A stretch of 30,788 nt of DNA, from positions 1 through 30,788 of the IMG/VR virus record IMGVR_UViG_3300028844_001798. One strand, given 5' to 3'. Shown here one piece after another: positions 7,171 through 30,771 of the stretch (its first letter is position 1; every line of letters begins with the position of its first letter). This DNA comes from a virus. The position numbers and the translations under genes were made by a program. The notes below the pieces were generated by a model. That model searched no databases, was not told the DNA's origin, and saw only the letters and a list, made by a program, of their open reading frames with translations.

Positions 7171-10100
7171 GTTATGTAAATGCTGGCGTTAATATTAACG
7201 TAATAGCAAACACAAAAGCGGCAACTGCTGGACTAAAACAAGTACAAGCACAGTTAAAGGGTTTGTCAGCAACAATGGCTGCTGCTGGTGCTTCTGGTGC
7301 TCAAGCACAAAGAGCAATGTCAGCAGTTCCCGCTGCCCTAGGTGCTTTAAATAACGCTGGCTGGACTTCTGGCGTAAGGAATATGACCACTGAGGTTGGT
7401 CGTTTACAACAGGCTCTTGATAAGGGCAGTGCCTCTAATGCTGATCTTAAAAAGATGACCAGGGGTTCTGCTGTAGTTCAGGCTATGGCTGCTGAACGTG
7501 TCCGTACTTTACAAACTAGGTATGCTGCTTTAGGTCAGTCTGTTGACGGCACACAGCGCGTGATGCGATCCGTACCTAATGAAATTATGACTTCGGCAAG
7601 GGCTGTTAATGAACTAAGTGCAGGCACAGGCCGTTATGCACAAAAGGCTACTGTCGCTGCTCAGACTGCTCAGATCATGTCTCAGAAGCAAAAGTTGTTG
7701 GCACAGAACACAATTAATGCTGGTAAGAATATGCAGTGGGCTGGCCGTCAGATGGTTGTAGGTTTTGGTGTTCCGTTTGGCTTGGCTGCTGCTGGTGCTG
7801 TTTCTGCTTTTAAAGATATTGAAGAGCAGTCTATTGCTTTTAAGCGTGTTTATGGTGATCTTACCACTTCGTCTGCTGAAAAGTCTAGGATGCTGGGTGA
7901 GGTTGTTAATGGTCTTGCTAAGGATATGACCACTTATAATGTGGCGGCAGCGGATACTGTTGAGGTTGCTTCTCGTGTTGCGGCGGTAGGGTATCAAGGC
8001 CAGGACATGCTAGATGTTACTAGAGAAACATTACGTCTAGCAACATTGGGTCAAATGGATTACAGCACTGCACTAGAAGCCACTATTGCTGTGCAGACTG
8101 CTTTCGATATTAAAGCGAAAGATATGGCTAAGACTACAGACTTTTTGAACGCGGCTGAAAACCAAACTATTTTGTCTATGGAAGATATGGCTATTGCTTT
8201 CCCTCGTGCAGCATCAGTCATCAAGGGTTTTAATGGTGAGGTTGAAGACCTTTCATTCTTGATGGTTGGTTTGCGTGAGGGTGGTGTTAAGGCTGAACAT
8301 GCTTCTAACTCTTTGAAGTCTATGCTTTCGTCTATGGTTAAGCCAACACAGCAAACCAAAGACATGATGAAAGACCTGGGTATCAATTATGGTGGGGTAG
8401 CCAAGTCATTAAATCAAGGTAACCTTATTGGTGCGTTTAAAGAATTAGACGTACAGATGAAAAATTTGGGTCGTGGCGATAGGCAGCGTTTTTTGACTCA
8501 GGCTTTTGGTAAGTATCAGTTCGCTCGTGCTGTTGCATTGTTTAAGAGTTTAGAAACTTTGCGTAAGGGTGGTGACACTCAACTAGATCAAATTGAAAAG
8601 TTAGATAAGATGAGTGCAGCCAAACTTGCTAAAATATCTGAGGGCGAGTTGTCGCAAATTGCTGAAAGCCCTCTAACAAAAATGATGGCAGGTTTTGAAA
8701 AGTTTAAACTTGCTGTTGTTCCTTTAGGTGAAAAGATTGCAACATCTATTGCTGCTATCTTTGAAAAGATTAATCCTTTCCTTGAAAAGTTTTTAAGTAA
8801 CGATACGGCAACATGGTTTACCTTGGCAACTGCGGGTGCATTAGGTTTATTTGCTGTGGGCAAAATGTTGGCCGGTGTATTTTTAAACCTAATAGGTTCA
8901 TTAAGAGCAGCGTTCTTCGGATTCAAAGACTTTATTAAAGGAACAAGATATGCTACAACTGAATCATTAGCAACTTCCGCAGCACAAAGAGATTTAGCAA
9001 CAGCAGCAGGGTTAGCAACAACTAGTTTCCAAAGGGAAACTGCTGCTGTTACTGCGTTGACTACTGCTTTGCGTGGCTTGGCTGGTGTTAGCAGAGCAAT
9101 GCCCCCTCGTGGTGGTGGCGGTGGTGGTGCTGGCCCTGCTGGACGACCTGTTCTCCCTATTGTTCCTGTTGGCCCTGGTGGTGGACAAGGACGAACTTTA
9201 GTGCCTGGAACTGTTGTTTCTGGCGGTAGAGGTACTGGTGGTGGAACTCCAAAACCTATTCCAGTTGTTCCTGTTGCCCCACAAGGTAGAAACCCTAGAG
9301 GAACAGGTGTCACTCTGCCCGGTGGTCTAGTAGTACCACAATCTTCTGTTATCCCATTAACAACAGGTAAGCCAGGGGCGTCTTCTCCAATTGACACGCC
9401 TAGTCAAGTTGCTAGTAAAATAGATCAACTACAAAGAACTTTAACTGCGTCTACTGCTCCTGCTGCTGCTACTGCTGCTGCTAGTATTGCTGCTAGTTTG
9501 GCTGGCGCAAACATGATGGGTGGTACTGGTGGGCTTCCTGTTCCTGCTCCTGCACCTGACACTGTTCCTAAGTCTGGTCCAACTCCACCTGCTGCCCCTG
9601 CTACACCTGAGCCTGCGCCAGTAGCACCCGCACCTGCGCCACCTCCAACTACTACAGAGGCTACACCTGCCCCTACTGCTCCTGCCCCTGCTGGTCCTGC
9701 TGGAACTGGTGCTGATCCTGTTAAAGTTGAGCCTGCTAAGCCTGCCAAATATAATCCTGAGGGGCAGCACATGGGTCATTTTGGTGGTGGTTCTGGTGCT
9801 GTTGCTGAGTTAAACGATGTTGTGACTGGTTTGTCAGGCGATGAATCTAACTTTAACCAGGCTGATAGTAGCGGTAAGCGAAGAATAAATAAAAATGCAC
9901 TTAAAGCCGCAATCAAAGAGGCACAAGCCCAGCCAGATTCCACCATCCCTGCAAGAATGGGTGGAATGGATACTGCGGATTGGATTTCTAAGACAGCCGC
10001 AGATGACTTTATTTTTGGAGAAAACTCCCCAAGAGTTCTTAGTTCGCTGTTCCACTTACAAGAGGGTGAAGGAAATTTGCAGGGCGGCGCGTTGGGCAGA

Positions 10101-13100
10101 ATGAGTCCAGAGCAGTTGGCAGATCAGTGGTCTTCTTCATCAACTCAAACCAGTATGGCTTCTAAGCGTCTAGGCTTGGAATGGGCAAGCATGACTCCTG
10201 AGCAACGTCTAGAGGCTCTTCCTGACCTAGAAGATAATAAATATACTCAACCGGGTGTGCGTGGTTTATCTCCTGCTGAGAGAGATGTTCTTACTGCCGA
10301 AGGTTTGCTTGCTTTTTCTGAAACCGAAAGGGGTCAGAAGAATTTGGCTGCTACTGGCGCGATATATGATGAGGCTGCTAGGCGAGTTCGTGAGTCGGAT
10401 ACTGTACTTGATGCTATTCAACAAAAGGATTTTCTTCAAGAAACCGCTAGAGATATGGACCCAGATGTGGCGGGTAGTTTTGCTGATGATTTAGATGCAC
10501 TTGATTCAACTGCTGCTGAGATAACAACTGCAAACGATAGGACTGCGCTGGGTGCAGTTAGCGTAAATGAAGACAACAGGAAAGAGGATAATCCTGGTGG
10601 TAAGCGTGGTCAGCAGTCAAGGGATCAGGCAGCAAGAAATAAAAATTCGGCTGCTCAACAGGCTCTTGCAGAAAAATTAGAGGCAACAAAACAGCAGACG
10701 CAGGATGCTGCTACTGTTGTTGCTGATGCTCAACAAACTCAAGCCACTGTTGTTGAGGATGCTGCTGATGCTGCTACTGATGCTGCTGATGCTGCTGATG
10801 CTCAACAAACTCAAGCCACTGTTGCTGAAGAGCCTGTTGAGTCTAAAAAAACTCAGAGTGATTATGAACGAAGGAAGAGTGCTTTAGTAAGAGATGTTGA
10901 GGATGAAAGACGGCAGGTTAGAGATGATTTCATTAATGATAGGATTACTGCTGATGAAGAGCAGCGTAGGTTGGCAGATATTGATGCTGCTGCCGCAGAA
11001 GCAAATGCAAATATAGAGGCCGCAGAAGCGAATCCTTATAGAGATGTTGCTGGTGACACTGATCGTGCTCGGGTACAAGCAAAGCAAAATCAGATAGAAA
11101 AGGCTCTTGAGGTTGAAAGACAGAAGGCTGCTATTGGGAATAATGAAGAGTTAACTCGTAGTCAAAAGCAAATACTGTTGGATCAGGTAGAGGGCACAGA
11201 CACTAGTTTAATTAGTGATTCTGCTATGCAAAGTATTATTGCTGAGGCTGAGGCTGATGCTAAAAATACTGGATATTTTGATAAGAGAGAACAGGTTAAG
11301 CAGGCTAGGGCGCTTGAGCAGGATGCTATGCTGCAAGATCGTATTCGTAATGAGGCAGTTAATCAGGGTCTTGATCCATTTGATTTGGCTGATTCTGATG
11401 AAGCAAGAATTCGTGAAGAGATAAGGGCACAAGATTCTGATTTGACAGAAGCCAAAAAAGCAAGAGCCGCCACGTTGACTGATAGTGATGTAGAAACATT
11501 GCGTCAGCAATTAGATGATCCAATAGTTCCAGATGCTATCAAGGAAGATATTAGAGAAACTTTAGGTGAAAGAACTAAGTTTGATGATGAGCAGATTGCA
11601 ACTGATAGAAAAGAGTTGGAGTCTGCTAGGCAACAAAGGGCTGAGGCTGCTGAAGCAATGTACGCCGCAGAAATGGAAGCAACTGAAGCCATGAATGCTG
11701 GCACTGCGGAAGAGAAGGCTGCTGCTAGTGATAAAGCAAAGCAGGCTAAGGCAGAGTTTGATGCAGCGCAAGAAAAAGAAAAATCACTGATTGATTCTGC
11801 GGGTAAAGAAACTAGTCAAGAAACACTTGATCGCTTAAGGGCTGAAGAAATAGATGCTATTGATGAATCCAACAAGGCTACTACTGAGCAAACTGCGGCT
11901 AGAGAAGACTTTGAGGAAAAGAAGAAGCAGCAGTTAAGAACTGAACAGGATTTGCGTCAAGCAGGTTTGGACGCAGAAGAGGCACGAACAAGAGTCGGCG
12001 CATTAGAAATGGCTGATACTCCATTTGATGACCCTGTGCTTCTTGAAGAGCAGCAAAAACTTACTGACGCTACAGAAGCACAAGTGACTGCGATGAATGC
12101 TAATGAAGAAGCAACAGCAAATTTGGCTACTTCTCAAACTAAACTTGATGACACAAATAAGAAAGCAAACGCGGCAATGGACAAAAGAGTTGATGCCACT
12201 AACAAAGCCACAAGACAACAAGAAACAGTTAATCGTACTAACGCTAAAACTCCTGCTCGTACTCCCACTCCTGCTGGTCCTAATGGTTTAGGAATGCCAA
12301 TTTTCGGTTCAGGTAAAGATGGATTTAGTGGAGGGTCATTTGCGCCTGGTGCTGGGGGTTTGCTTCGTTCAGGTCTTGGTGCTTTGAGTGGTCCTCTTGG
12401 TACTGCTTCCAATGCAGTCATTAATGGTGCCACAAGAGCCAGTGATGGTTTACGGGCACTACCTGGCATGGTTGGAACTGGAACTAGAAATTTACTTGTT
12501 GATCAGGCTAACAAGGCAGAGCAAGAGAAGCAACAGAAGGCTGCTAAGAAAGCAGCAGGTATGGAGGCTAAGAACGCAAGAATAGAAGCAGGACAGCAAG
12601 CACAGGCTCGTTGGGGTAACCGTATGCAGTTTATTGGTATGGGCGGAATGATGGGAACTATGGGTGCTAGTATGGCTGGTGCTGAAATTCCTATGTGGGC
12701 TAATATGCTTCCTATGGCTGCTATGACTGCGGCTATGTTGCCTGGTGGTTTTTACTCTGGCATGGGTAAAGGCTTTAAGGGCGCAGGCAAGGGTATTGGT
12801 GGTCTTGGGACTAAGATGACTGAGGGCCTTGCTAAGCGAGCGTTTAAGTCAGGAACCTATGCTCCCGGTCGGATGAGTCTTTCTCAAGGTTCTAGCACAA
12901 TTGGTAAAAGGTCTGGTGTGATGGGTGTTGGCAAGAAAGCAATGGTGGCTCAGGGCGCTTTGGGTGCGCTGGGTAGCATTGGTAGGGTTGCAGGCAAGGC
13001 TGGTCCTATTGGTGCTGCTGTTGCTGGCATTATTGCTGCTGGCACTGGTGTTACTTTAGCATTTAGAAAAATGCAGAATGCTGCTGCTGAATCAGGTGAG

Positions 13101-16100
13101 CAGATGGGCAAACATGCTATTGCTACTTCAGATACTATTAATGCTTTGGGTGAGGCAACAGGTAAGCAAAGTCTTTCTTCAAAGGCTATTGCTGAAAGAG
13201 AAGCGAAGACTTTGGGTACTGATGCAGAGACTAAAGCAAAGGTTGATCAGATTGCTGATTCTGAAATTGGTCAGGAAATGTCTAAGGCTTATGAAACTCA
13301 GTCACAGATGATGGGCACGGAAAGTGCTAGACAGTCTATGTTGAATACTGTTCAGACTGCAATGCTTGAGGGCGTTATGAATATGAAGGAGGCCAAGGCT
13401 TTCCTTGGCTCTCAGTTGGGTGATAATGCAATTCCTCTAGTTTCTCAGTTGGAAAAGGATATGAAGGGCGGTGGGGTTTCTACTGATGCTGCTGGTGTTG
13501 CTCTTGATTTGGCTAAGAGTAACTTTCTTACTGCTTTTAAGATGGAAATGGGTGCTCAGAATCAGAGCATGAGTTACTGGGATAATTTAGGTGCGGCTGA
13601 TCGTGACAGACAAGAGCGACTTAATTCTGGTCAAGCAGGTGTAGGTGAGCAGTTTGCTTTTTGGGATACTTGGTTTGATGCTGCTGATAAGACTGCTGAG
13701 GCTACTAAGGCTCGTTCTGCTGCTGCTTTAACTTGGAGTGGTGCTCTTAGTTCTTCATATACTAATCGTATTGCTGCTGAAGAACGAATTGCTATGGCTG
13801 TTGATGATCGCAAGAAGAAAGAAAAAGAACTTGCTGACATGGAAGCGAAGGGCTTAAAGGGCACTGATGAATACAACAAGTTGGCGAATCAGATAGAAAA
13901 GTCTAACAATCAGATTAATAAGGGCAAGCAGAATCTAAAGGATTTTGACGCAATGACTGAAAAGACTGCTAAAGGAGCGATGGACTCGTTTAGAAGTTTA
14001 ATGAATGATGGTGATAGCACTGCTCAAGATCAGTTTATTGAAAGTTTGAGGACGACTGGTGAAGCCAGGATGGACGCAATTTCGCCTCAAATGAGAATTG
14101 ATTTTCTTCAGGATTCAGGAATTAATGATGCTCAAGCAGAAATAGTTGCTAATAGAGAGATGGAGCAGGGGCTAATAACCCCTGCCGAAGGTCAAACTAT
14201 AGAAGAAGCGCGAATTTCAAGATTAAACGAACTAAAGGGCGCTTACTATATGGCAATTAACTCTGGACTTCAAGCCGGTAGTGTAAGTAGTGGTTTGCTT
14301 GATAGTCTTTCAGGAGGTCGAGGTGCAGGAGCGTTACTTGCTGATGCAATTTCGGTTACTTCTGGTGGCACGATTCAAGAAGTTCTTGCTGCCACTCAAG
14401 GTCTAAAAGCCAAAGATAGCACTGGTTTGGTTGGTCAACTAATAGGAAAGGCAGACAGCAATCAAGATTGGCAGAGGCTCACTAATATTCTTCCAGAAAT
14501 TTCAGAACTAAGTAAGAAGCAGCAGGGCGCTATTCTTAATGAACTTCTTGGTAAAGATGAGATTCCAAATCTAAAGAAAGCCAAAGACTTAATAGATGGT
14601 ATTGTCGATGGTAAAGATAAGAATGACAAAAAAGGCACTGGTGGTGGCAAGGACAAAGATAAAGATGATCAAGATGATCAAGATGATCAAGATGATCAAG
14701 GTGGTCAAGGTGGTCAAGGTGGTCAAGGTGGAAACAAAGATGATGACCAAGACCAAAGTACTGGTAAAAATCAGTCTACTCCCCCTACCCCTTCCATAAT
14801 CCCACTACTACCTGGCCTGGGTACAGATCAGTCTGGTGTTTCTGGTGTTCCACCTCTTCTTGCTCTTCCTGACCAGTCTGGTGTTCCTGCTTCTACAACT
14901 ACTCCTACAACTACTCCTACTCCTACAACTACTCCTACTACTACAACTACTCCTACTCCTACAACTACACCTACAACTGACCAGAGTGCTGATGTTGGTG
15001 AATTGCCGCAAGAAGATCAGCAGGTTGAACTTAAGTACAACATTGTTATGGAGGGTGATAGTGAAGAGATTACTAATAAGTTAAATGCTATCACTGATGC
15101 TGTTGAGAAGGCTCAAGGTAAGGCCACTAAGATTAAAGTTAGAGTTGATATGGCTGGGGATAAGCCTGGTAGGATTGCTTCTCAGTTAGAAACAATGGTT
15201 GAGAGAGTTAAGGCTGTTAAAAAAGAGATGCCTAAAAAGATTAAGTTGAGCATTAAGGTTTCTGGTGTTAAGGCTTTGGGAACTGCTGCTGATAATGCTA
15301 ATAAACTTAAGAACAAGTTGGTTGCTGTTAAAGATAACAGTGATATTGATATTAATATTACTGCTAATACTAGTCAGGCTTATGCTGCGGTTGATCAACT
15401 GGTTGCTGATATTAATAGTCGGTCTGCTACTGTTGCGGTGAAGGTTGGAAAGGCTGATGGTGGTCTTGTCTTTAATTCCGGCGGTGCAGTGAGAGGCCCT
15501 GGTACTGGTACTTCTGATAGTATTCCTGCCATGTTGTCTAATGGCGAGTATGTGATTCGTGCTTCTTCTGTTAATAAGTATGGTACTGATATGTTGGATA
15601 AGGTTAATGTTGGTAAGTATGCTAGTGGTGGTGCTGTTGGTATGAAGAGGGGTGGCAAAGCCAAAAAAGGTTTTGATCCTGAGGAGTGGGTAGCGCGTTG
15701 GATGAAAAAACCAGGCGCGGACGGTGAAGCGGTTGGTGGTGGTGGAGAACTCATAGGACAAGGTGTTCGTAGGAGATTAAAGTCAGCACAAAAAAAGAAA
15801 AGAGCAGCAGAGAAAGAAAAAGAAGATGAGAATAAGGATGGTGATGATGATGGTAATGAAGTAAAAAATCAGTTAAAGCAGTTGGATGATTCTATTAAGA
15901 AGTTGACTGCTATAATGGGAAATACTGGTAAGCAGTTTGCTAAGGGCACAAAGAGTCTTGTTAATAAGATTAAAGAGAATTTTAAGTTTAATGGCAAGAA
16001 TCAAAAAGTTTTTGGCAAGAAGACTAGTTTTTTGCAGAAGTCTACTGCTGCTGATAACATTGATACTAAGGTTTTGAAAAAGGCTAGTAAGTCTGAACTT

Positions 16101-18485
16101 AAAAGTATTTTCAATAAGATGATGCAGAATTTTCGTTTGACTGCTGAGTATCAGGCTAAAGTTCAAAAGTCAATGTTGAACAAGCAGTTAAGTTTGTTTA
16201 AGAAGCATCATTACAGTCGTTATGATATTATTGCTAATTTGAGCAATGAAGAACTTGCTTCGCTTGGTAAAAATAAAAAGAAGCAGTTGGAGTTAATTAA
16301 ACTTAAAGAAAAGTCTGCTGAAAAAGAACTTAGGTTGCAAAAGAAGTTGGATCGCGCAACTTGGATGACTGACTTTTTTAATCAACAAGAGCAGAAGGCT
16401 ATTGATGCTGGTAGAAATGCTATTCAGGCTACTGTTGATAAGCAGGGAAGTGCCAAGAGTGCTGCTGGATATTCTGAATATTTGGCCCAGAATCAGGATA
16501 AATCGCCTGAAGAAATATTGACTCAGGAAGAATGGCAAACCACACAAGACCTTGACAGTCCTGAAGCAAAAAAGATAAGAAAAATTCAACAAAAAGAATA
16601 TGATAAAAACAAAAAGAAAGCAAAGAAGCGATTAAGGCAGACTATAAAAAAGTCTGGACTAAAGAATTTAAAGAATTCTAAACTTCCGGCGACTTTTAAA
16701 GATGGTAGACTTGTTACAAGAGAAGGTACTGGAAAATCATTCCTTGAGAATCCAGATTTGTGGCCTAGTACTAACTCAGGAGGCGAGCCGGGATCAGTAA
16801 AAGAGATACCAGTTCTTAAAAAGAGAAAACAAAAAAAATATCTAAATCTTGACTTTGATGTAAGTAAGAAAAAATTTAATCAACAGTTGGACGAGGGAAA
16901 TTTTAGTAAAAAAGAAAAGAAGGTATTGAGGCGGGCTTTCAATGAAGAGTTAGTTCTTAGTGACAAAAAATTAAAGAAACTTGGTAAGTCAGCAAATGAG
17001 AGTGCTGATAAGTTAGATGAGGTTACTCAATCTGCTGCTGACCTTGCAGCGGTAGCAAAGGCACAAAAAGTTATTGACAATATGCTTCAGTTGCAGCAGT
17101 TGTCTTATGTTGATGCTCTTGGTCAAGTTGTTTCTCAAATGGACAACGTTATTAATGCTTTGACTAATCAGGAAAAAAATATTGCTACATTGGCTTTTTC
17201 TAATCTGAATGGACAAACTCAATCGGGATATATGGCTGGTGTTGCTAACTTTGATCCCAACGTTATGAATCCCGATAACCTTACTCGTAATCAAGTTAAT
17301 GCACAGATGCAAATGGATCAGGCACAATTGACCATACAACAAAATCAACTTGCTGATATTAATGAGAAGTATGATGAGCAGGCTGAAGTTTTGCAGGAAG
17401 TTAATGCACAGCAAGAGCAATTAGAGGCTGTGTCGCAGTCTCGTTTATCGGTTGCTGCTGCTTTATCACAAGGAGATGTTGCGGCTGCTGCTTCGGCTCG
17501 TAATGAGGCTCAGAGGCAATCTGCTGCTTTTGCTAGAGAATCTAGGCAACTTGGTTTGGAGCGCGCTCGTGAGGCTGCTGTTGCTGGTTTGGAAGAGAAG
17601 ATTAAAGATGCTACTAAGGCTCTTCGTGATCAGCAGGCTCAGTTAGGTTTATGGGATGCTAAGGTTGCACAGTCTGTGGCAGATGCAACAGCCGAAATGG
17701 AAAAAGCAAGAGCATTGTTTATAGATAATACAAATTATTATCCTCAAGTGCAGCAAGAGGCTCTGGATAAGATAGGTGAACTTTTTGCCGCGCAAGAACA
17801 ACTGGCCACTAATATGTTGACACACCTTAAAGGTGTTAGTGAAGATGTAGTAAAACAAATTACGAGTGCGACAACAACAGCCAAAGAAGCATATGACGAG
17901 GCTTTGGGTACTGTTAATAGTGATGATCCTGCTGGTGATGATCCTGCTGGTGATGAAACAGGGTCGAATCCGCAATTAAGTAGAAAAGAGAAGTGGAAGA
18001 AGCATTGGGACAAACTTAATGGCAAGCAGAAAGAAAAACTTAAAGGTTGGGGCTGGGCCAGAAAAGGCGGTAGAAAGTGGGATAAGTTAACAGATGGTCA
18101 GAAGGACAGGGCTATTAAATTGCTTAGGCAAAAAGAGTTGAAGAGGTTTAAGAAGCCTGCTGCTAAGTTTTCTGCTGGTGGTTGGGTGCCTGGTAGTGGC
18201 ACGGGGGATACTGTTCCTGCTATGCTTACTCCTGGCGAATTTGTTGTTAATAAGGCTGCTGCTCAACAGTATAGTTCTTTGTTGAAGAGTATTAATTCTC
18301 CTGGCTTTGCTATGTCTGGTAAGACTGGCAGTATCTCTAGTGCTAAAAAGAGTGATATTGGTCACAACGAATATAACTATTCGGTTACAGTTAATGCTGG
18401 ATCGGATGCTTCTGCCGATGATATTGCTCGTATGACTTTGACAAAGATAAGAGACTTTGATAAAATGTCTATGAGGAGGAACTAA
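7167..18485 (+). CDS. giant tail tape measure protein
   Basis: 3772 residues from a GTG overlapping the previous TGA; GAGGTGA (7154-7160) is upstream. It sets tail length and is ejected ahead of the DNA. In order: N-terminal helices; residues about 183-405 a TP901-type tape measure domain (NMQWAGRQMVVGFGVPFGLA, DIEEQSIAFKRVYGD, VAAVGYQGQDMLDVTRETLR); hydrophobic segment about 551-578; Pro/Gly/Ala-rich linker about 644-868; an unknown, probably folded region to about 1090; charged coiled-coil-like region to about 1690; Gly/Met/Ala-rich hydrophobic region about 1700-1970 with two or three membrane-compatible stretches; helical region to about 2480; Asp/Gln/Gly and Thr/Pro repeats about 2485-2604; an alpha/beta region; a PAMLSNGEYVI motif near 2790; a Lys-rich helical region; a second PAMLTPGEFVV motif near 3690; and a C terminus ending in SVTVNAGSDASADDIA and more. 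No peptidase or lysozyme motif was recognised. Confidence 0.92.
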   Translation: MSYVNAGVNINVIANTKAATAGLKQVQAQLKGLSATMAAAGASGAQAQRAMSAVPAALGALNNAGWTSGVRNMTTEVGRLQQALDKGSASNADLKKMTRGSAVVQAMAAERVRTLQTRYAALGQSVDGTQRVMRSVPNEIMTSARAVNELSAGTGRYAQKATVAAQTAQIMSQKQKLLAQNTINAGKNMQWAGRQMVVGFGVPFGLAAAGAVSAFKDIEEQSIAFKRVYGDLTTSSAEKSRMLGEVVNGLAKDMTTYNVAAADTVEVASRVAAVGYQGQDMLDVTRETLRLATLGQMDYSTALEATIAVQTAFDIKAKDMAKTTDFLNAAENQTILSMEDMAIAFPRAASVIKGFNGEVEDLSFLMVGLREGGVKAEHASNSLKSMLSSMVKPTQQTKDMMKDLGINYGGVAKSLNQGNLIGAFKELDVQMKNLGRGDRQRFLTQAFGKYQFARAVALFKSLETLRKGGDTQLDQIEKLDKMSAAKLAKISEGELSQIAESPLTKMMAGFEKFKLAVVPLGEKIATSIAAIFEKINPFLEKFLSNDTATWFTLATAGALGLFAVGKMLAGVFLNLIGSLRAAFFGFKDFIKGTRYATTESLATSAAQRDLATAAGLATTSFQRETAAVTALTTALRGLAGVSRAMPPRGGGGGGAGPAGRPVLPIVPVGPGGGQGRTLVPGTVVSGGRGTGGGTPKPIPVVPVAPQGRNPRGTGVTLPGGLVVPQSSVIPLTTGKPGASSPIDTPSQVASKIDQLQRTLTASTAPAAATAAASIAASLAGANMMGGTGGLPVPAPAPDTVPKSGPTPPAAPATPEPAPVAPAPAPPPTTTEATPAPTAPAPAGPAGTGADPVKVEPAKPAKYNPEGQHMGHFGGGSGAVAELNDVVTGLSGDESNFNQADSSGKRRINKNALKAAIKEAQAQPDSTIPARMGGMDTADWISKTAADDFIFGENSPRVLSSLFHLQEGEGNLQGGALGRMSPEQLADQWSSSSTQTSMASKRLGLEWASMTPEQRLEALPDLEDNKYTQPGVRGLSPAERDVLTAEGLLAFSETERGQKNLAATGAIYDEAARRVRESDTVLDAIQQKDFLQETARDMDPDVAGSFADDLDALDSTAAEITTANDRTALGAVSVNEDNRKEDNPGGKRGQQSRDQAARNKNSAAQQALAEKLEATKQQTQDAATVVADAQQTQATVVEDAADAATDAADAADAQQTQATVAEEPVESKKTQSDYERRKSALVRDVEDERRQVRDDFINDRITADEEQRRLADIDAAAAEANANIEAAEANPYRDVAGDTDRARVQAKQNQIEKALEVERQKAAIGNNEELTRSQKQILLDQVEGTDTSLISDSAMQSIIAEAEADAKNTGYFDKREQVKQARALEQDAMLQDRIRNEAVNQGLDPFDLADSDEARIREEIRAQDSDLTEAKKARAATLTDSDVETLRQQLDDPIVPDAIKEDIRETLGERTKFDDEQIATDRKELESARQQRAEAAEAMYAAEMEATEAMNAGTAEEKAAASDKAKQAKAEFDAAQEKEKSLIDSAGKETSQETLDRLRAEEIDAIDESNKATTEQTAAREDFEEKKKQQLRTEQDLRQAGLDAEEARTRVGALEMADTPFDDPVLLEEQQKLTDATEAQVTAMNANEEATANLATSQTKLDDTNKKANAAMDKRVDATNKATRQQETVNRTNAKTPARTPTPAGPNGLGMPIFGSGKDGFSGGSFAPGAGGLLRSGLGALSGPLGTASNAVINGATRASDGLRALPGMVGTGTRNLLVDQANKAEQEKQQKAAKKAAGMEAKNARIEAGQQAQARWGNRMQFIGMGGMMGTMGASMAGAEIPMWANMLPMAAMTAAMLPGGFYSGMGKGFKGAGKGIGGLGTKMTEGLAKRAFKSGTYAPGRMSLSQGSSTIGKRSGVMGVGKKAMVAQGALGALGSIGRVAGKAGPIGAAVAGIIAAGTGVTLAFRKMQNAAAESGEQMGKHAIATSDTINALGEATGKQSLSSKAIAEREAKTLGTDAETKAKVDQIADSEIGQEMSKAYETQSQMMGTESARQSMLNTVQTAMLEGVMNMKEAKAFLGSQLGDNAIPLVSQLEKDMKGGGVSTDAAGVALDLAKSNFLTAFKMEMGAQNQSMSYWDNLGAADRDRQERLNSGQAGVGEQFAFWDTWFDAADKTAEATKARSAAALTWSGALSSSYTNRIAAEERIAMAVDDRKKKEKELADMEAKGLKGTDEYNKLANQIEKSNNQINKGKQNLKDFDAMTEKTAKGAMDSFRSLMNDGDSTAQDQFIESLRTTGEARMDAISPQMRIDFLQDSGINDAQAEIVANREMEQGLITPAEGQTIEEARISRLNELKGAYYMAINSGLQAGSVSSGLLDSLSGGRGAGALLADAISVTSGGTIQEVLAATQGLKAKDSTGLVGQLIGKADSNQDWQRLTNILPEISELSKKQQGAILNELLGKDEIPNLKKAKDLIDGIVDGKDKNDKKGTGGGKDKDKDDQDDQDDQDDQGGQGGQGGQGGNKDDDQDQSTGKNQSTPPTPSIIPLLPGLGTDQSGVSGVPPLLALPDQSGVPASTTTPTTTPTPTTTPTTTTTPTPTTTPTTDQSADVGELPQEDQQVELKYNIVMEGDSEEITNKLNAITDAVEKAQGKATKIKVRVDMAGDKPGRIASQLETMVERVKAVKKEMPKKIKLSIKVSGVKALGTAADNANKLKNKLVAVKDNSDIDINITANTSQAYAAVDQLVADINSRSATVAVKVGKADGGLVFNSGGAVRGPGTGTSDSIPAMLSNGEYVIRASSVNKYGTDMLDKVNVGKYASGGAVGMKRGGKAKKGFDPEEWVARWMKKPGADGEAVGGGGELIGQGVRRRLKSAQKKKRAAEKEKEDENKDGDDDGNEVKNQLKQLDDSIKKLTAIMGNTGKQFAKGTKSLVNKIKENFKFNGKNQKVFGKKTSFLQKSTAADNIDTKVLKKASKSELKSIFNKMMQNFRLTAEYQAKVQKSMLNKQLSLFKKHHYSRYDIIANLSNEELASLGKNKKKQLELIKLKEKSAEKELRLQKKLDRATWMTDFFNQQEQKAIDAGRNAIQATVDKQGSAKSAAGYSEYLAQNQDKSPEEILTQEEWQTTQDLDSPEAKKIRKIQQKEYDKNKKKAKKRLRQTIKKSGLKNLKNSKLPATFKDGRLVTREGTGKSFLENPDLWPSTNSGGEPGSVKEIPVLKKRKQKKYLNLDFDVSKKKFNQQLDEGNFSKKEKKVLRRAFNEELVLSDKKLKKLGKSANESADKLDEVTQSAADLAAVAKAQKVIDNMLQLQQLSYVDALGQVVSQMDNVINALTNQEKNIATLAFSNLNGQTQSGYMAGVANFDPNVMNPDNLTRNQVNAQMQMDQAQLTIQQNQLADINEKYDEQAEVLQEVNAQQEQLEAVSQSRLSVAAALSQGDVAAAASARNEAQRQSAAFARESRQLGLERAREAAVAGLEEKIKDATKALRDQQAQLGLWDAKVAQSVADATAEMEKARALFIDNTNYYPQVQQEALDKIGELFAAQEQLATNMLTHLKGVSEDVVKQITSATTTAKEAYDEALGTVNSDDPAGDDPAGDETGSNPQLSRKEKWKKHWDKLNGKQKEKLKGWGWARKGGRKWDKLTDGQKDRAIKLLRQKELKRFKKPAAKFSAGGWVPGSGTGDTVPAMLTPGEFVVNKAAAQQYSSLLKSINSPGFAMSGKTGSISSAKKSDIGHNEYNYSVTVNAGSDASADDIARMTLTKIRDFDKMSMRRN
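10721..10824 (+). repeat. 32-bp direct repeat in the tape measure gene
   Basis: Two identical 32-base copies at 10721-10752 and 10793-10824 (period 72) encode ADAQQTQATV twice, separated by Ala/Asp runs made of GATGCTGCT units. The length keeps the frame, so repeat gain or loss would change tail length in whole turns of coiled coil. Confidence 0.85.
14664..14726 (+). repeat. 9-bp tandem repeat array (seven units)
   Basis: Four GATGATCAA units (14664-14699) followed by three GGTGGTCAA units (14700-14726) encode Asp-Asp-Gln and then Gly-Gly-Gln triplets. The array is in frame and probably a slippage-prone flexible linker in the tape measure protein. Confidence 0.9.
14894..14978 (+). repeat. 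Thr/Pro codon repeat tract
   Basis: Repeated ACAACTACT and CCTACT units encode a tract of about 28 residues made only of Thr and Pro. It lies about 170 bases after the 9-bp array and forms part of the same low-complexity linker region. Confidence 0.85.
17922..17951 (+). repeat. 15-bp tandem duplication
   Basis: Two copies of GATGATCCTGCTGGT encode DDPAG twice, in a linker between the Lys-rich helical part and the C-terminal part of the tape measure protein. Confidence 0.85.
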
Positions 18486-19312
18486 TGGCTGATAGAGCAT
18501 ATATGAATAATAGAAGAAAGTATCAACGTCCTCAGGCTTTGTTGTTTTCTAACTACCCCGGCACTATTGATGATTGTTTTTATATGTTACCTAACGGTCC
18601 AGGGGATCAATCAGATTCTCAAGAATTTGGTTTTGGAGCAGTTATTACTGATCAAAATGCGGGTGAGGGTTATTTCCCAGGATACAATGTCCCTGCTGGT
18701 CCTAACTTTTTAGTTTGTTCTGATGATAACCGTAATCCAATTAATCTAGATTTTGAACGTATTGAATCTAGGGAGCGCATGATTAATGGTCGTATGCGTT
18801 CTGTTTTTATTGATGACAAGTTGAGAATCAGTGTTGGTTGGGACATGTTGCCTTCTCGTGCTTTTGATGCTCCTTTCTATTCTTATAGCAACAATCTTGG
18901 TGGTGTCACTAGTAATGGGAAAATGCAAGGCACTATTGCTACTGTTCCATTAGATGTTAGTTGTGCGTGTGGCCCTTGTTTCCGTAATTCTGATGGCACT
19001 GTAAAGGATGAGATTAAAAAACTTCAGGCTCGTAAAGTTGCTTACACTACTGATGGTGGTGCTGGTGGTAATGATTTGTTGAAGTGGTACAAGGAGCATC
19101 CTGGACCTTTTTGGGTGTATTTGGCTTATGACAATTGGGATCACTTTAATACTTCTAATGCTAGTAATGGGCTTGAATTCCCTTGGGATAAGTGTCACTA
19201 CAAAAAATACAGTCATCGTATAGAAATGTATTTTAGTAGTTTTGACTATAGTATTGAGAAGCGTGGCAACTATGATTTTTGGAACATTAATTTAAGTCTT
19301 GAGGAAGTATAA
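18485..19312 (+). CDS. putative distal tail protein (Dit-like)
   Basis: 275 residues. The ATG overlaps the tape measure TAA and is preceded by GAGGAGGA. It directly follows the tape measure gene, where distal tail proteins that end the tube and start the tip usually lie. Residues about 95-125 (RMINGRMRSVFIDDKLRISV then GWDMLPSRAFD) and 195-225 (DLLKWYKEHPGPFWVYLAYD) with the C-terminal HRIEMYFSSFDYSIEKRG fit minor tail proteins known at this position in actinobacteriophages. A CACGPC motif (about residues 160-165) could bind metal or form a disulfide. No enzyme motif seen. The Dit name is inferred; minor tail protein is safe. Confidence 0.6.
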   Translation: MADRAYMNNRRKYQRPQALLFSNYPGTIDDCFYMLPNGPGDQSDSQEFGFGAVITDQNAGEGYFPGYNVPAGPNFLVCSDDNRNPINLDFERIESRERMINGRMRSVFIDDKLRISVGWDMLPSRAFDAPFYSYSNNLGGVTSNGKMQGTIATVPLDVSCACGPCFRNSDGTVKDEIKKLQARKVAYTTDGGAGGNDLLKWYKEHPGPFWVYLAYDNWDHFNTSNASNGLEFPWDKCHYKKYSHRIEMYFSSFDYSIEKRGNYDFWNINLSLEEV

Positions 19313-20643
19313 TGTTTTCTAGTATAAGAAAAGACTCTAATGGCGTTGTTGTTGGTGGAGAGTTAGAATCGGCGGTACGGAATAACCACACTATCAAATC
19401 TCGTACTGTTGTTATTACTGAATGGAACATTAATGATGCTGAGCATATTGTTCAGGTAGGTAACTATCGTAATCGTTGGTTTAAGGATGAAAGGAAAAGC
19501 ACTTCATCTTCTTGGCCTCATGAAGTTATTGAAGATACTTGGGATGAAAATGATGCCAGTAATTCTTGGACTAATGCTACTGATGCTAATATAGAGGTTG
19601 CTGGACTTCAGACAGAGGATGAGAACGGTGATCCGTTGCCTACTTTGTTTCAGGAAGAAGATTTAAGGTTTAAGTTTAATTATAGTTTAGAGCAATGTTT
19701 TTCTCAGCATCGCCCTAGGAGTGGTGTAAACTATCCTGTCTATTTTGGTGAGCCAGGAGATAAGGCCGGTACACAAAAGTTTGCTGGACTAAATTCTGTG
19801 TACGCTCCAAGGTATTATATGGGACATTCTGAAAACGATTTTAAGTATTGGACTTCCTATAGGCATGTTGATAGCCATGACGGTTTTGATGAAAGTGAAT
19901 CTGCTTTGGCTACTGATGAGATGGGCATATCTAAAGTTGGAACAAATAATGAATATTACATTCACGACGCAGCGCCTTTTGTTGTGTATGATGAAAGTTA
20001 TCCAACTAACAACATTGTTGTTAAGATGCAAAGCAATATGGGGGAGGCTGATGTTGAGCCTTTTAGTAGAGTTCATTCTTCTTTGCCTGCTAAGTGGAGA
20101 GTGGAAAAGTTAGATGTAAATAATAACTGGGTCACTGTCAAGTCTTTTACTGATGAGTCTACTTCTGATGACTTCTATCAAGTTTCTTGGGATGGTTATG
20201 TTGAGTTAAACTACGGTTGCATTTTAAGTCACGACGAACAGGATTGGACTGATTTGCCTGATGATAAAAGATTCTTGGGTTATTTTGAAAATCTTTCTTT
20301 GGTTCCTGAGTATGGTGTTGATGGAGATTACTATATTGTTTTAGATGGTAATAATAATGGCAAGGGGACTTGCTATGCTTGGCTTGGAGATAGTTCAAAT
20401 GCTACTCCTTCCAGTCCTGATCTTCTATGGTCTTTTAAAGAAGTTGATTTTGAATATGATTGGCATGTAGGTTCTGCTAATGTTGGCGAAGTTATTATGT
20501 CTGACTTTTGTGATTCTTTGTATGTTGATAACAATAAGAATGCATTTCGTGATTATGATTTAATGAAGGGGTTGCGTATTGTTGTTGACAGAATGGTTTT
20601 TAAGAATAGAACTTTTGATCTTATTGAGTTGTCTCCACGTTAA
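19312..20643 (+). CDS. minor tail protein, N-terminal part of a split hub gene
   Basis: 443 residues. The ATG overlaps the previous TAA and GAGGAAG lies four bases upstream. The protein is acidic and aromatic-rich, beta-type in appearance, with LPAKWRVEKLDVNNNWVTV and GYVELNYGCILSHDEQDWTD as blocks. Its C terminus, RMVFKNRTFDLIELSPR, ends at TAA (20641-20643). The next gene starts at the very next codon in the same frame and reads as a smooth continuation, so this is probably the N-terminal part of a hub protein that is one chain in related phages, as far as I recall them. It may work as two chains, be joined by readthrough, or be a recent split. Confidence 0.7.
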   Translation: MFSSIRKDSNGVVVGGELESAVRNNHTIKSRTVVITEWNINDAEHIVQVGNYRNRWFKDERKSTSSSWPHEVIEDTWDENDASNSWTNATDANIEVAGLQTEDENGDPLPTLFQEEDLRFKFNYSLEQCFSQHRPRSGVNYPVYFGEPGDKAGTQKFAGLNSVYAPRYYMGHSENDFKYWTSYRHVDSHDGFDESESALATDEMGISKVGTNNEYYIHDAAPFVVYDESYPTNNIVVKMQSNMGEADVEPFSRVHSSLPAKWRVEKLDVNNNWVTVKSFTDESTSDDFYQVSWDGYVELNYGCILSHDEQDWTDLPDDKRFLGYFENLSLVPEYGVDGDYYIVLDGNNNGKGTCYAWLGDSSNATPSSPDLLWSFKEVDFEYDWHVGSANVGEVIMSDFCDSLYVDNNKNAFRDYDLMKGLRIVVDRMVFKNRTFDLIELSPR

Positions 20644-20646
20644 GTG
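20641..20646 (+). other. in-frame TAA-GTG junction inside a tail gene
   Basis: The 443-residue frame ends in CGT TAA and the 1098-residue frame begins GTG GAA in the same register with nothing between. No Shine-Dalgarno sequence is evident within 15 bases upstream of the GTG. Reinitiation, stop readthrough, or mutation (or a sequencing error) of an ancestral sense codon would each fit. Confidence 0.8.
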
Positions 20647-23600
20647 GAAAAGGCTGTGGGGATTGTTGATTCTATTGCTCTACCTATTGGTGGTTTTCAG
20701 GCCGGTACGGGATCAGTAGAAATCTTAGACTACGACATGTCTTTTAATTCAAACAATAGAGACAGTATTATTCATAACATGTTAGACAGAAACACTTCCT
20801 TCTATATCTATGATTCTATTACTGTTGGCTACTACAACTATTATATTCCTGTTAAAAAACTTTTTAATGAATTTAAAGAACCCGAAGTTAATCAGTATTC
20901 TGTTTCTTACGATTTGCGTGACCTGTTTTATAAGTTAGAAAATATAGATGCCCCTAGTCTATCTTTGTTTGATGTTTCTTTAAGTTATGCTGTAGGAACT
21001 ATCCTTGATCTTATTGGTCACACAAACTATACCTTTAAATATATTGGAATGGATACCAAACAGAATATGGAAAAAGAACCAACCATTCCTTACTTTTTTG
21101 TTAATCCTGAAAAGAATGTTGCAGAAGTTTTAGAAGAGTTGGCTGTTGCCACACAGTCTGCAATGTTCTTTGATGAATATAATAATTTTGTTGTCATGTA
21201 TAAAGAGTTTTTGATGAGTAAAAAAGATCGGCCTTTGTCTACTACTACCAATAGAATTGCTTATATGACTGGCAATGAGCCACAAAAAGATGAGTGGAAT
21301 ATTAGAAAGTCTGCAATGAAAACTCGTGCTGCAAACCTGCAAGAGATTATTCAAGAAGAAGAAAGTTTTCCTGACATGCTCCCTAACATTATTGAGGTTG
21401 CATCAGATGAAAAGAAAACTTACAATCAGGGAACTATCAATTACTCCACCCGGCATTTAGAGCGAGACTCAGCAACGTTAAAGAATTCGCAACAACTAAA
21501 CATTGATCAGCGTTGGATATACAAGCCTGCAATGCTGTGGGAAGTGTCTGCTACTGATAATGTGAGATCAAAGAATGAAAAAGTTGCACAGGCTGGTTAT
21601 AGTTTAACTGCCTTGCCGTTAGAAAACGATTTAGATGATTCGGTTCCAGAAGTTGACAATGGTGTTGTTAAGAACAACACTATGTATGTTGGAGACAATA
21701 TTTTTTGGCTTGCACGATACAATGGCTATTTATATTCTGCTGGTGAAATTATTAAGTACGATGCTATGGAATATAAAGTTGTTGGAATGAAACCAGTTTA
21801 CAAAACAATAACAAACCCAGTTGACAATACTACTTATGAAAACTTTGTTGGATACGAGGAGAGTCAAACTGAAACTAGTACAGTGTGGATTTCCGACGCA
21901 GCCGACTATCAAAGGTATTTTGGTAACACTCCTTTTAACGGTAAAATGTATCCCACTGGTAGAATTAGAATTTGGACAGACTTAGAATATGACCAAAGCG
22001 ATACCATTGTAGGAATTAGTGAGCATGGCAGAGGTCAGTTTAATACTGATGTTACTAGTCATACTGCTGGTGTTAGTTCTGATTGGACTAGCAATAATAA
22101 TTGTTTTGGTTATTATGCTAACTTTTATAGTGCTTTTATGGAATGTCAAACTGTTGTGGACTCAAGTGGTGAACCTGTTTTGGACGACGATGACAATGAG
22201 GTGAAGGATTGCTCTATGATTCCTGACTGGACAAACAATTCTACCTTTAATAGTAGTGTTCCCAAAAGGTCTATTAGGCGTGGCTTTATTCAAAATTTTG
22301 CTAGGGAAGAAATTGATTCTGCTGCAACTAATATGAATGCTCGGAAGTTAACTGAATCAAATATGGTTCAGGCTTCTGCTCTTTATTTTAAAGGACCAAA
22401 AATTAAAAGAGGAAACGTTGATGATCCATTTCCTTCGTCAGCAATTACTTTTGTTAAAAAGAGTTTGCCCCAACAAGGAAAGTGGCAGCATTTTGGTGCT
22501 AGGGTCCGCATTTTAGGCGACTATGGCGATGCTGTTCAATTACCTAGTTCAAGTAATACTGATGAGCCTGGTTGGGAATATACTGGTAAAGTTTTGAAAA
22601 GTTCTTCAGGTGGTATTGCTTTTGGTGTCAATAGTGTTGGAGATGGTTACTATCTAGAGTTGAAGGCATTGGGGTATGACAATCCTGATGCCGAGTCTGA
22701 TCCTGAAACTGAGGCATTTATTCAACAAGTAGAGAACGTTATTTTTTGGAAAAAGAGTGGTTCCACTATCACTAAAATTGCTGGTGGGGTGTTAGACGTT
22801 CAGGTTGACAGTGGAGACTATGTTGGTATGCAGCGTCAGTCAGGAGAAGAAACTGGAACCACTGTCTATGATATTGCTGTTGAATATGCAGATAATATTG
22901 CGCCAGGAAAAAGAAGGTTCACTGTCTATGTTAATGGCGCTGAGGCTTTTGTTGTAGATGATCCTCTTCCAAACCCAGCAATAGATTATGGAACTATTGC
23001 GCCTTTTGTTCGTGGAAACTCTACACTTATGTTTGAACACATTTACGCTTTGGAACAAAGAATTACTAGTTCTAGAGGCAAAGGGCCTAATCAAAAGATT
23101 AAAGATGTTTTTAATATTGGTGAGGATCGTGCTGATGGTAGTCGTTATTTACCATATAGTGATTTTTACAAGTTTGGTATTAGTGGTTTTGTTCAAGAGA
23201 GTTATTTGAAAAGTATTAGCAAGGATAGTAACCCAGGATTTAATCTTTGGTATGAAGAGTTTGGTGCTATTATGAGAGAGGCTGCGTATTTTGATATTAA
23301 GTATGAAGCGTACCCCGCTTTTATTTCAAGAATTTCTCCTGCTCTTAATGGTCGTCCTGCTTTTGTTCATTCAGGATTTCAAGCAGGTCCGTATGGTGCA
23401 AAGTTTTTAATTTTTAATACTATGGATGCTCCCGTTGTTCTTGATGAAACTAGCGGTAACTATCTTCGTGTTCAGGGTGTTACCTTTACACAGGATACTA
23501 CAAAAGAATATACTATGGATGATTTATTGAATAAGGTTGCTAAGCCCGAATACAATTTTACAGGTATCAATGAGTATGAAACAAAGTTTTCTGATATTAA

Positions 23601-23940
23601 AAAGAATAGGTCTAAGTATGGCAAGGTTGATTGGAGTTTTGAAAATAGTTTTATTCAAAGCAATGATGCAGCAGAGGATTTGATGGAGTGGCTTATTGAT
23701 AAGACTACTAGGCCAAGGCAAATGGTTGGTTTAAAAATATTTCACAATCCTTTGATTCAATTAGGAGATAGAGTTAAAATTAATTACTCTAGAGACAGTC
23801 GTGATTGGGCTGACCCCGAAGATACTAGTCAGATGGTTGATGTTGTGTGTGATGCAGAAAAACTGTTTGTAGTGTATAATATAAGATACAGCCGTGGAAA
23901 TGGTAGCGTTTCTATGGAGATATATTTGAGTGAGGTTTAG
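20644..23940 (+). CDS. tail hub / tail-associated protein with a putative carbohydrate-binding insert
   Basis: 1098 residues from a GTG directly after the previous stop, same frame. The first 190 residues resemble the hub of siphophage tips: SIALPIGGFQAGTGSVEILD, then YYNYYIPVKKLFNEF, then VLEELAVATQSAMFFDEYNN. Residues about 573-796 look like a jelly-roll insert of the concanavalin/LamG type, with alternating strands (WQHFGARVRI, GGIAFGVNSVGDGYYLEL, RRFTVYVNGAEAFVVDD), probably for cell-surface sugar binding. The C terminus (TRPRQMVGLKIFHNPLIQLG then DRVKINYS and VYNIRYSRGNGSVSMEIYLS) is typical of hub-type minor tail proteins. No hydrolase residues recognised. The insert call is by pattern only. 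Confidence 0.7.
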   Translation: MEKAVGIVDSIALPIGGFQAGTGSVEILDYDMSFNSNNRDSIIHNMLDRNTSFYIYDSITVGYYNYYIPVKKLFNEFKEPEVNQYSVSYDLRDLFYKLENIDAPSLSLFDVSLSYAVGTILDLIGHTNYTFKYIGMDTKQNMEKEPTIPYFFVNPEKNVAEVLEELAVATQSAMFFDEYNNFVVMYKEFLMSKKDRPLSTTTNRIAYMTGNEPQKDEWNIRKSAMKTRAANLQEIIQEEESFPDMLPNIIEVASDEKKTYNQGTINYSTRHLERDSATLKNSQQLNIDQRWIYKPAMLWEVSATDNVRSKNEKVAQAGYSLTALPLENDLDDSVPEVDNGVVKNNTMYVGDNIFWLARYNGYLYSAGEIIKYDAMEYKVVGMKPVYKTITNPVDNTTYENFVGYEESQTETSTVWISDAADYQRYFGNTPFNGKMYPTGRIRIWTDLEYDQSDTIVGISEHGRGQFNTDVTSHTAGVSSDWTSNNNCFGYYANFYSAFMECQTVVDSSGEPVLDDDDNEVKDCSMIPDWTNNSTFNSSVPKRSIRRGFIQNFAREEIDSAATNMNARKLTESNMVQASALYFKGPKIKRGNVDDPFPSSAITFVKKSLPQQGKWQHFGARVRILGDYGDAVQLPSSSNTDEPGWEYTGKVLKSSSGGIAFGVNSVGDGYYLELKALGYDNPDAESDPETEAFIQQVENVIFWKKSGSTITKIAGGVLDVQVDSGDYVGMQRQSGEETGTTVYDIAVEYADNIAPGKRRFTVYVNGAEAFVVDDPLPNPAIDYGTIAPFVRGNSTLMFEHIYALEQRITSSRGKGPNQKIKDVFNIGEDRADGSRYLPYSDFYKFGISGFVQESYLKSISKDSNPGFNLWYEEFGAIMREAAYFDIKYEAYPAFISRISPALNGRPAFVHSGFQAGPYGAKFLIFNTMDAPVVLDETSGNYLRVQGVTFTQDTTKEYTMDDLLNKVAKPEYNFTGINEYETKFSDIKKNRSKYGKVDWSFENSFIQSNDAAEDLMEWLIDKTTRPRQMVGLKIFHNPLIQLGDRVKINYSRDSRDWADPEDTSQMVDVVCDAEKLFVVYNIRYSRGNGSVSMEIYLSEV

Positions 23941-23942
23941 TT

Positions 23943-24518
23943 GTGGCAATTACTGTAAGACCCCCTTCGGGCATTGTTATTAGTGGCTATCCAGGCAAAG
24001 ACTCAGATGTTCGGCAACCTATTACTTGGGAGCAGCAGTCTGAAGTTTTACCTCCTGAAGTTATGCAGCAACTAGTTTTGGGTGCTATCAGCGGTAGTGA
24101 ATTAATTAAACTTTCTACTCACGACAGAGTTCAGGGAGAAAGAATTCCTTTCTCACCTATTGTTGATGTTGATATTTATTCAACACAGTTTAAGTTTAAA
24201 GGTCTTGTTAATTATGTTAGAACTTTAAAGTCTTATAAAAGAAATTTTTCTTTAGACGTTAATGATTTTTATGTTGAAGAGGCTCCTGAATACTCATCGT
24301 CTGTTTTAATGAGTGAGAACAAAGAAATTTTTGCTGGTATTACTTCTACCAATAATGCTTCTTATGTTGAAACAACTTTAGAGGTTGAGAGTTCGTCTAC
24401 ACAATATACTACATCAAACAGTCTTGCAACAACTAATGGTTCTTTGCAAATTTCAAATATTAATAATACTTATGCTTATGTTGTTCCTAAAGGAAAGGTT
24501 GGTATTTTTGCAGCATGA
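23943..24518 (+). CDS. minor tail protein, unknown
   Basis: 191 residues from a GTG two bases after the hub stop; GAGTGAGG about eight bases upstream supports it. The N terminus (ITVRPPSGIVISGYPGKDSD) is followed by a mixed middle and a Ser/Thr/Asn-rich C-terminal half (about residues 115-191) that looks beta-structured. It overlaps the next gene by four bases (ATGA). Position between hub and fibre genes suggests a tip or fibre-linking protein. No family recognised. Confidence 0.7.
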   Translation: MAITVRPPSGIVISGYPGKDSDVRQPITWEQQSEVLPPEVMQQLVLGAISGSELIKLSTHDRVQGERIPFSPIVDVDIYSTQFKFKGLVNYVRTLKSYKRNFSLDVNDFYVEEAPEYSSSVLMSENKEIFAGITSTNNASYVETTLEVESSSTQYTTSNSLATTNGSLQISNINNTYAYVVPKGKVGIFAA

Positions 24519-27454: not shown

Positions 27455-27479
27455 CAGTCCCGTTCTGGGCTGGTACAAT
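27451..27479 (+). promoter_or_regulatory. strong sigma-70/SigA-like promoter of the replication operon
   Basis: Perfect -35 TTGACA (27451-27456), 17-base spacer, extended -10 TGG-TACAAT (27474-27479). The -35 contains the stop codon of the MerR-like gene. An imperfect inverted repeat, CAGTCCC/GGGCTG (27455-27472), fills the spacer. The predicted start near 27486 leaves a 22-base leader with AGGAAGGA (27495-27502) before the ATG at 27509. Confidence 0.88.
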
Positions 27480-27508
27480 GATAGTACGTTCGACAGGAAG
27501 GATAGAAT

Positions 27509-27715
27509 ATGTCAGACGAGCGCAAAGTAAAAGTATCATTGGGGTACACACTAAACCTTGGGAACTTTGAGTCCCTGAGGATTGATGTAGGTGTTGAAGA
27601 TCGCGTCATTGGTGACGAGAATATTGACGGTGCAATGGAACGCACTTACAAGTATGTGGAAGAGTTGCTGACCATTAAGGTGAGCGAGGCTAAGGCTGAG
27701 TTGAATGGCGAATAA
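27509..27715 (+). CDS. small conserved-looking phage protein, unknown
   Basis: 68 residues with a strong AGGAAGGA six bases upstream and the best promoter in the window. VSLGYTLNLGNFESLRIDVG followed by VEDR is a beta-type N-terminal half; the C-terminal half is one acidic helix (MERTYKYVEELLTIKVSEAK). It overlaps the next gene by 11 bases. It is the first gene of the putative early replication operon, where small host-takeover or regulatory proteins are common, but nothing in the sequence proves this. Confidence 0.78.
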   Translation: MSDERKVKVSLGYTLNLGNFESLRIDVGVEDRVIGDENIDGAMERTYKYVEELLTIKVSEAKAELNGE

Positions 27716-29535: not shown

Positions 29536-29862
29536 ATGAACTTTCATCATAAGTCAATTAAAAAGTTCAAGTTGTCTGGAACTATTTATGACGAGGCACA
29601 TACTGATCGTCTAAAAACAGAATACTTGAGTTTGCTAACTATGCAAATGCGTGATTCAGGTTATGTACCTCGCATTGATATTGACTATGATTTTACAATG
29701 ATGTATAATCTAGAGAAGAACGAATACAACTTCATAATGTCAGTCTATGGTGTCTATGTCGGGCCTAAGAAGGCTCAGCAGATTAAGGCAGTGATGGGCT
29801 TTAAGCCTATCTATGAGAGGGCAGACATGTATGATAAAGATATGATAACTCAAGGAGATTAG
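29536..29862 (+). CDS. small protein upstream of the primase, unknown, leaderless
   Basis: 108 residues with no Shine-Dalgarno before the ATG; the -10 element ends six bases upstream, so a leaderless mRNA is expected. The N terminus is basic, the middle has an aromatic block (IDYDFTMMYNLEKNEYNFIM then SVYGVYVGPKKAQQ), and no known family is apparent. It ends at the TAG directly before the primase ATG, so the two form a unit. Confidence 0.75.
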   Translation: MNFHHKSIKKFKLSGTIYDEAHTDRLKTEYLSLLTMQMRDSGYVPRIDIDYDFTMMYNLEKNEYNFIMSVYGVYVGPKKAQQIKAVMGFKPIYERADMYDKDMITQGD

Positions 29863-30771
29863 ATGCATTACACTGAGGACCAGACAGAGGCAGTCCTTAG
29901 TGCTATTGGATTAGACATTCGACAAGAGGCAGGAGACAATTGGATTGTTTTTTGTCCGTACCATGATAATTGGAGAACACCTGCTGGTGAAGTTTCCAAG
30001 GACTCTGGTGTGTTTTATTGTTTTTCCTGTAGTACTACTGTCTCGTTAGAAGAGTTAGTTATGAAGGTGTCTGGTAGGACATTCTTTGAAGCGATGAGAT
30101 TGATTAAGTCTAAGGAGACTGAAAGTGATTTGGTTAAAGACATTGGTAAAACATTGGTGGTCGAAGATTTGGTAGAGTTTGATCTTGATCTGATTGACCG
30201 TCTGCATATTGCGGCGGTACAGAATGAAAGACCAAGCAACTACCTAGTGTATAGAAACCTTACAGAGAGTAGTGTAACTAAGTTCAAGATAGGTTACTCT
30301 ACAAACCAAGACATGATCATTGTGCCAGTGCATAATCCTGATGGTATTGCTTTAGGTTTTGTTGGCAGATCAATCGAGGGTAAGCGTTTCAAGAACAGCA
30401 CAGGACTTAAAAAGTCTAAAACCTTGTTCAACATTCACAGGGTAAAGGCTAGTCCTTTTGTGTTTGTTGTTGAGTCATCCTTTGATGCTATCCGTCTAGA
30501 CCAGTATGGAATTCCAGCAGTTGCTACGTTGGGTGCTGGACTTTCTAAGCACCAGTGTGCTATACTAGACAAGTATTTTGGTACGATCTATTTTATTCCT
30601 GATGCTGATAATGCCGGGGTAGAGATGAACACTAAAATGCACAAAAAACTTGGTAGTAAAGTAACAACAATCAACCTCCCAACAGGAGCAAAAGATGTTG
30701 GCGAACTATCAGGAAAACAAATAGAAAAACTACGCACCCTACTAGACAACCCTCTAGTTGGTGTGCTATAA
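29863..30771 (+). CDS. dnaG-like: DnaG-like DNA primase (zinc finger plus TOPRIM)
   Basis: 302 residues; AAGGAG (29852-29857) precedes the ATG. It should make RNA primers for the DnaB-like helicase. Residues 31-56 form a CHC2-type zinc finger (Cys31, His34, Cys53, Cys56). Residues 140-175 resemble the start of the primase core (FKIGYSTNQDMIIVPVHNPD). The TOPRIM domain follows: VVESSFDAI with the acidic Glu204, and FIPDADNAG with Asp247 and Asp249. It is much shorter than bacterial DnaG (about 580 residues) because the C-terminal helicase-binding domain is absent, as in many phages. The TAA (30769-30771) is part of the TATAAT promoter at the window's end. Confidence 0.9.
   Translation: MHYTEDQTEAVLSAIGLDIRQEAGDNWIVFCPYHDNWRTPAGEVSKDSGVFYCFSCSTTVSLEELVMKVSGRTFFEAMRLIKSKETESDLVKDIGKTLVVEDLVEFDLDLIDRLHIAAVQNERPSNYLVYRNLTESSVTKFKIGYSTNQDMIIVPVHNPDGIALGFVGRSIEGKRFKNSTGLKKSKTLFNIHRVKASPFVFVVESSFDAIRLDQYGIPAVATLGAGLSKHQCAILDKYFGTIYFIPDADNAGVEMNTKMHKKLGSKVTTINLPTGAKDVGELSGKQIEKLRTLLDNPLVGVL

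Follow-up and report, generated by a model that had tools for sequence, protein, structure and literature searches.

The tail hub of Streptomyces and Rhodococcus phages is encoded by one gene of ~1060 to 1785 codons, at the same place in the tail operon as the two frames considered here. Among other phage genes, DNA polymerase B has been described in split form, with an intein (PMC6892783), and the structure of the tape measure gene varies among Clostridium perfringens phages, where fission, fusion, or indel was left open (PMC3118219). A limited keyword search of the open-access literature brought up no case of a hub divided in the present manner. Termination-reinitiation, by which adjoining genes may be translated in a coupled way, was strongly dependent on distance in published tests (PMC10666635). 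The role of the Shine-Dalgarno sequence in reinitiation is gene-specific, and the sequence is often not essential; in E. coli its removal lowered reinitiation in four of the five pairs tested (PMC6728339).

The window, i.e., the whole stretch of DNA that was analysed, is a virus record of its own with 30,788 bases and 41% GC, and its source is a single metagenome-derived contig. The tail module contains the tape measure gene (7167-18485), a distal-tail-like gene, two hub frames, and minor tail genes, and is followed by helicase and primase genes. In the operon, the hub pair follows the tape measure gene and the distal-tail-like gene, as do the hub genes of the phrog_10359 family. The features around the junction are listed in Table 1. 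The tape measure frame has 3772 codons, as against ~2100 in related Streptomyces phages, and known tape measure profiles match its first part only, within the portion scanned. The longest gene-free gap in the window (27455-27704, 250 bases) separates the helicase region from a tail-module gene.

Table 1. Features of the hub junction and its neighbouring genes in the window.
Feature	Positions	Strand	Description
Distal-tail-like gene	18485..19312	+	275 aa; 1-nt overlap with hub start; gene order common to relatives
Upstream hub half	19312..20643	+	ATG start, 443 aa; EWN motif region (N-terminal), inserted discoidin-like domain, end TFDLIELSPR-stop
TAA stop	20641..20643	+	At the place of 13 sense codons, the first Leu, in all measurable relatives; net -12 codons
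GTG, candidate reinitiation codon	20644..20646	+	Directly 3' of TAA; without Shine-Dalgarno site
Downstream hub half	20644..23940	+	GTG start, 1098 aa; hub domain and C-terminal parts; phrog_10359
Small tail gene	23943..24518	+	191 aa; directly downstream of hub halves; gene order common to relatives

The two hub frames lie in one register and touch at TAA|GTG with a spacing of 0 nt, exactly as the original prediction had read them. A frameshift is ruled out, because a single frame is common to both halves. The pattern FDLIE[x]SPR followed by a stop occurs once in the window and in none of 100 shuffles. The upstream half starts ~11 residues before the start of most relatives (19312-19350), and in two of the relatives, L072 and L079, the frame is likewise open further upstream.

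The downstream half alone matches phrog_10359 (minor tail protein; PHROGs) from profile position 250 of 1081, with 119.5 bits and an E-value of 2.3e-34. The read-through product gives 137.1 bits (E 1.1e-39), and its best stretch, 418-647, spans the stop. The joined protein also aligns co-linearly with the hubs of the Streptomyces and Rhodococcus phages. By sequence homology, the two frames together make up a single hub gene ('minor tail protein', phrog_10359). All measured relatives have a single uninterrupted chain, and the chain of the window is interrupted by the TAA at 20641. The original statement that actinophage hubs are usually one chain of over 1000 residues is borne out, since those of the Streptomyces, Rhodococcus, and IMG/VR relatives are all single-chain. 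In the hub of the Rhodococcus phage NiceHouse (L006:2609-6664), the conserved AEWN motif is followed by a PA14-like insert, whose match (E 5.8e-5) falls slightly short of the Pfam cut-off.

Used as a single-protein query of viral_contigs, each half returned no match, and the relatives were found by profile search; in genome_contigs there was no confirmed relative. The profile scans of viral_contigs yielded at least 230 loci of uncultured phages (the best 80 per scan, with some contigs repeated), which were reduced to 118 distinct junctions, 117 of them measurable on both sides. The measurable IMG/VR relatives, the nearest ones, are 34-43% identical, and at best ~43% over the downstream half. 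In all of these 117, exactly 39 nt separate the codons that match window residues 443 and 445, while the window has 3 nt (TAA) at this place and is 12 codons short. The 13 codons in the relatives are of the LVVDISDKVIDFN type, and their first residue is always Leu (117/117). The change of 12 codons is a loss in the lineage of the window, because the stretch is kept even in the more distant phages of Streptomyces and Rhodococcus.

A gap scan places the loss best at the stop or no more than three residues from it. A gap placed instead so as to remove the loop that follows the first hub strand was rejected, as the score falls from ~55 to 48 or less beyond three residues from the stop. A nonsense change and a sequencing error had both been offered in the original prediction; if a single base were concerned, neither would be sufficient, because a conserved 12-residue stretch is gone exactly there. 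A lone nonsense codon is thus ruled out, and so is an intron or intein, since sequence is missing rather than added. The earlier view of one continuous domain across the junction is incomplete, since the 12 residues are missing there.

No stop or frame change was seen in the compared hub region of the 118 distinct relatives, so that a second split hub is not among them, and homologues encoded as two separate genes were likewise not seen (117 of 117 measurable relatives are single-chain). The pattern FDLIE[x]SPR with TAA or TAG directly after it was found nowhere in viral_contigs, although it does detect the window. Records very near the window may be left out of this search, and a close sibling that carries the stop may therefore have escaped it.

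Two of the possible explanations concern the reading of the TAA. In the first, the stop would be read through to give a minor full-length hub of 1542 residues beside the short form. The single register on both sides and the match of the joined protein to the family across the stop agree with regulated readthrough, but the fused product would still be without the 12 conserved residues, the stop is kept in no relative, and the RNA structure at the junction is not unusual (z -0.61). It is considered very improbable. In the second, TAA would be read as an amino acid in a recoded genetic code. Nothing more than the open frame on both sides speaks for recoding, whereas TAA is an ordinary stop that ends 10 of the 24 genes of the window, the homologues of one of these TAA-ended genes (18485-19312) match it to its last residue, and no tRNA genes are present in the window. 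Recoding, which had been set aside from the outset, is refuted for practical purposes.

The position of the loss may be related to the domain structure of the hub. In the model of one relative, L014 (mean pLDDT 67), the strand DLIEMSPRLVVN lies at 395-406, and the next strand, VVDFNIK, follows directly at 411-417. In Foldseek, this model has hits to three hub proteins, Mu gp44, the MuSo2 tail protein, and VgrG; a hub (Mu gp44 / VgrG-like) fold is tentative, as the E-values are 1e-4 to 1e-3 for the models of both the relative and the window, at modest model confidence. In a Streptomyces homologue, an F5/8 type C match, weak and below threshold, is situated just ahead of the corresponding point. 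It appears from these observations that the stop separates a discoidin-like domain from the hub domain. The lost residues would then be the last part of the linking strand together with most of the first hub strand. The AlphaFold model of the read-through region of the window has a mean pLDDT of 54, too uncertain to place the downstream N-terminus or a replacement for the lost residues.

The near-invariant positions of the family are kept to 65% in both halves, which shows past selection on both halves. Such selection gives no date for the split, because the branch of the window is long: in the tree, the window stands by itself on a deep branch with either half. At the junction, the last strand of the upstream half, FDLIELSPR, is intact, while divergence is seen at the start of the downstream half, where one of four conserved positions is kept (small numbers).

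The contig could also lack, through a fault of assembly or sequencing, a short stretch that is present in the real genome. That the sequence is one metagenome-derived record and that the relatives are uniform at the junction are in favour of such a fault. The gap, however, is in-frame and without a causal repeat (no junction k-mer of 11 or more bases recurs in the window), no other gene is broken, and the 118 related contigs are without such a fault in the compared hub region. The two halves are similar in composition and have the same deep placement, so that neither composition nor tree gives a sign of a chimeric contig. A fault of this kind is considered unlikely.

If the downstream half is translated separately, its start would be the GTG. 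The best pairing energy of a ribosome site before it is -2.9 kcal/mol, which equals the background median, in keeping with the original reading that no convincing site is present; an alternative GTG start at 20656 was rejected, with a pairing of only -3.3. The codon occupies a Val/Ile position of the family. None of 79 relatives uses GTG there, while 21 have another Val codon, and GTG makes up 12% of the Val codons of the window. The absence of GTG at that codon in the relatives may be taken as a suggestive, though not strong, sign of a working second gene. A spacing of -4, -1, or 0 nt, within the range of coupled translation (PMC10666635), is found at 10 of the 23 gene junctions of the window, the hub junction included, and coupled translation is therefore a local style. 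A second same-register pair with zero spacing (29862-29863, TAG|ATG) differs from the hub junction in that its Shine-Dalgarno site is strong (dG -8.3).

The best single reading of these data is a lineage-specific fission of the hub gene, in which both halves would be produced by termination-reinitiation and assemble without a covalent link; we judge the probability of this reading to be evenly balanced. Between the discoidin-like and hub domains, a net 12 codons would have been lost in frame, which brought a TAA directly before the GTG. The ribosome would then complete the 443-residue half, terminate, and restart at the GTG next to it with no Shine-Dalgarno site, and the two halves, made together, would assemble non-covalently into the tail tip. 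Translation of both halves, a working restart, and a functional two-chain hub are all presumed in this scheme. In its favour, there is more than a stop at the junction: 12 conserved codons are missing at a probable domain boundary, and a candidate start follows directly. The avoidance of GTG at this codon in the relatives, the close spacing of many junctions, the family positions kept in both halves, and the intact last strand of the upstream half are also in its favour. Stop-start reinitiation stands as the best of the options first proposed. Against fission, the GTG is without a Shine-Dalgarno site. The first hub strand is part of what is missing, according to the L014 model, and the downstream half may therefore fold poorly; moreover, the split is seen in a single record, with no second split hub among 118 distinct relatives.

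One deletion could also have yielded both the missing codons and the stop without any functional meaning. This would be a recent in-frame loss of 36 nt in one strain or defective genome, which created the stop, and the contig would represent a damaged or minority variant. The loss removes a conserved strand, and it is common to no relative. However, the rest of the window is open, including the 11.3-kb tape measure frame, and a possible start codon lies directly after the stop. The tail hub is expected to be essential, and therefore a dominant genotype without it would not persist. A recent loss of function is held to be improbable. The degrees of probability given for all the readings are judgements and were not computed.

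Returning to gene fission, a more specific form of it is a stable split into two coupled proteins at the boundary between a sugar-binding-like module and the hub, with the linking strand lost and the receptor-facing module held non-covalently in the tail tip. This form is plausible but tentative, with a probability slightly short of even. If the split is real, two chains made separately can do the work of the central tail-tip protein in a large phage family. The locus would then show a surface-facing module that has naturally come apart from its hub, as well as a zero-spacing stop-start pair without a Shine-Dalgarno site that is suited to the study of reinitiation. If the split is not real, the window contains one damaged or mis-assembled copy.

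The locus may be compared with known systems. The uncultured IMG/VR phages (loci L010-L239) have the TFDLIE[MIL]SPR motif just before the site, as in the window, but their hub is one chain of ~1400-1510 residues with 13 codons in place of the TAA. The phrog_10359 proteins of the Streptomyces phages StarPlatinum (gp63), Francob (gp40), Jay2Jay (gp66), and TunaTartare (gp40) are alike in operon place and show co-linear homology across the stop; they differ in being single chains of ~1060 residues in which the linking stretch is present. The hubs of the Rhodococcus phages Trina, NiceHouse, and Dorin, which share the gene order of the window and can be aligned across the junction, are also one chain (1345-1785 residues) with the linking stretch. 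With pairs coupled by termination-reinitiation (PMC10666635, PMC6728339), the hub junction shares the short distance between stop and start (0 nt, where overlap or a distance within ~10 nt is expected); a Shine-Dalgarno site, which is helpful but not always needed in such pairs, is absent from it. As proposed for the hub halves, coupled pairs often encode subunits of one complex; the hub pair differs in that it is derived from one ancestral chain, and its coupling is putative.
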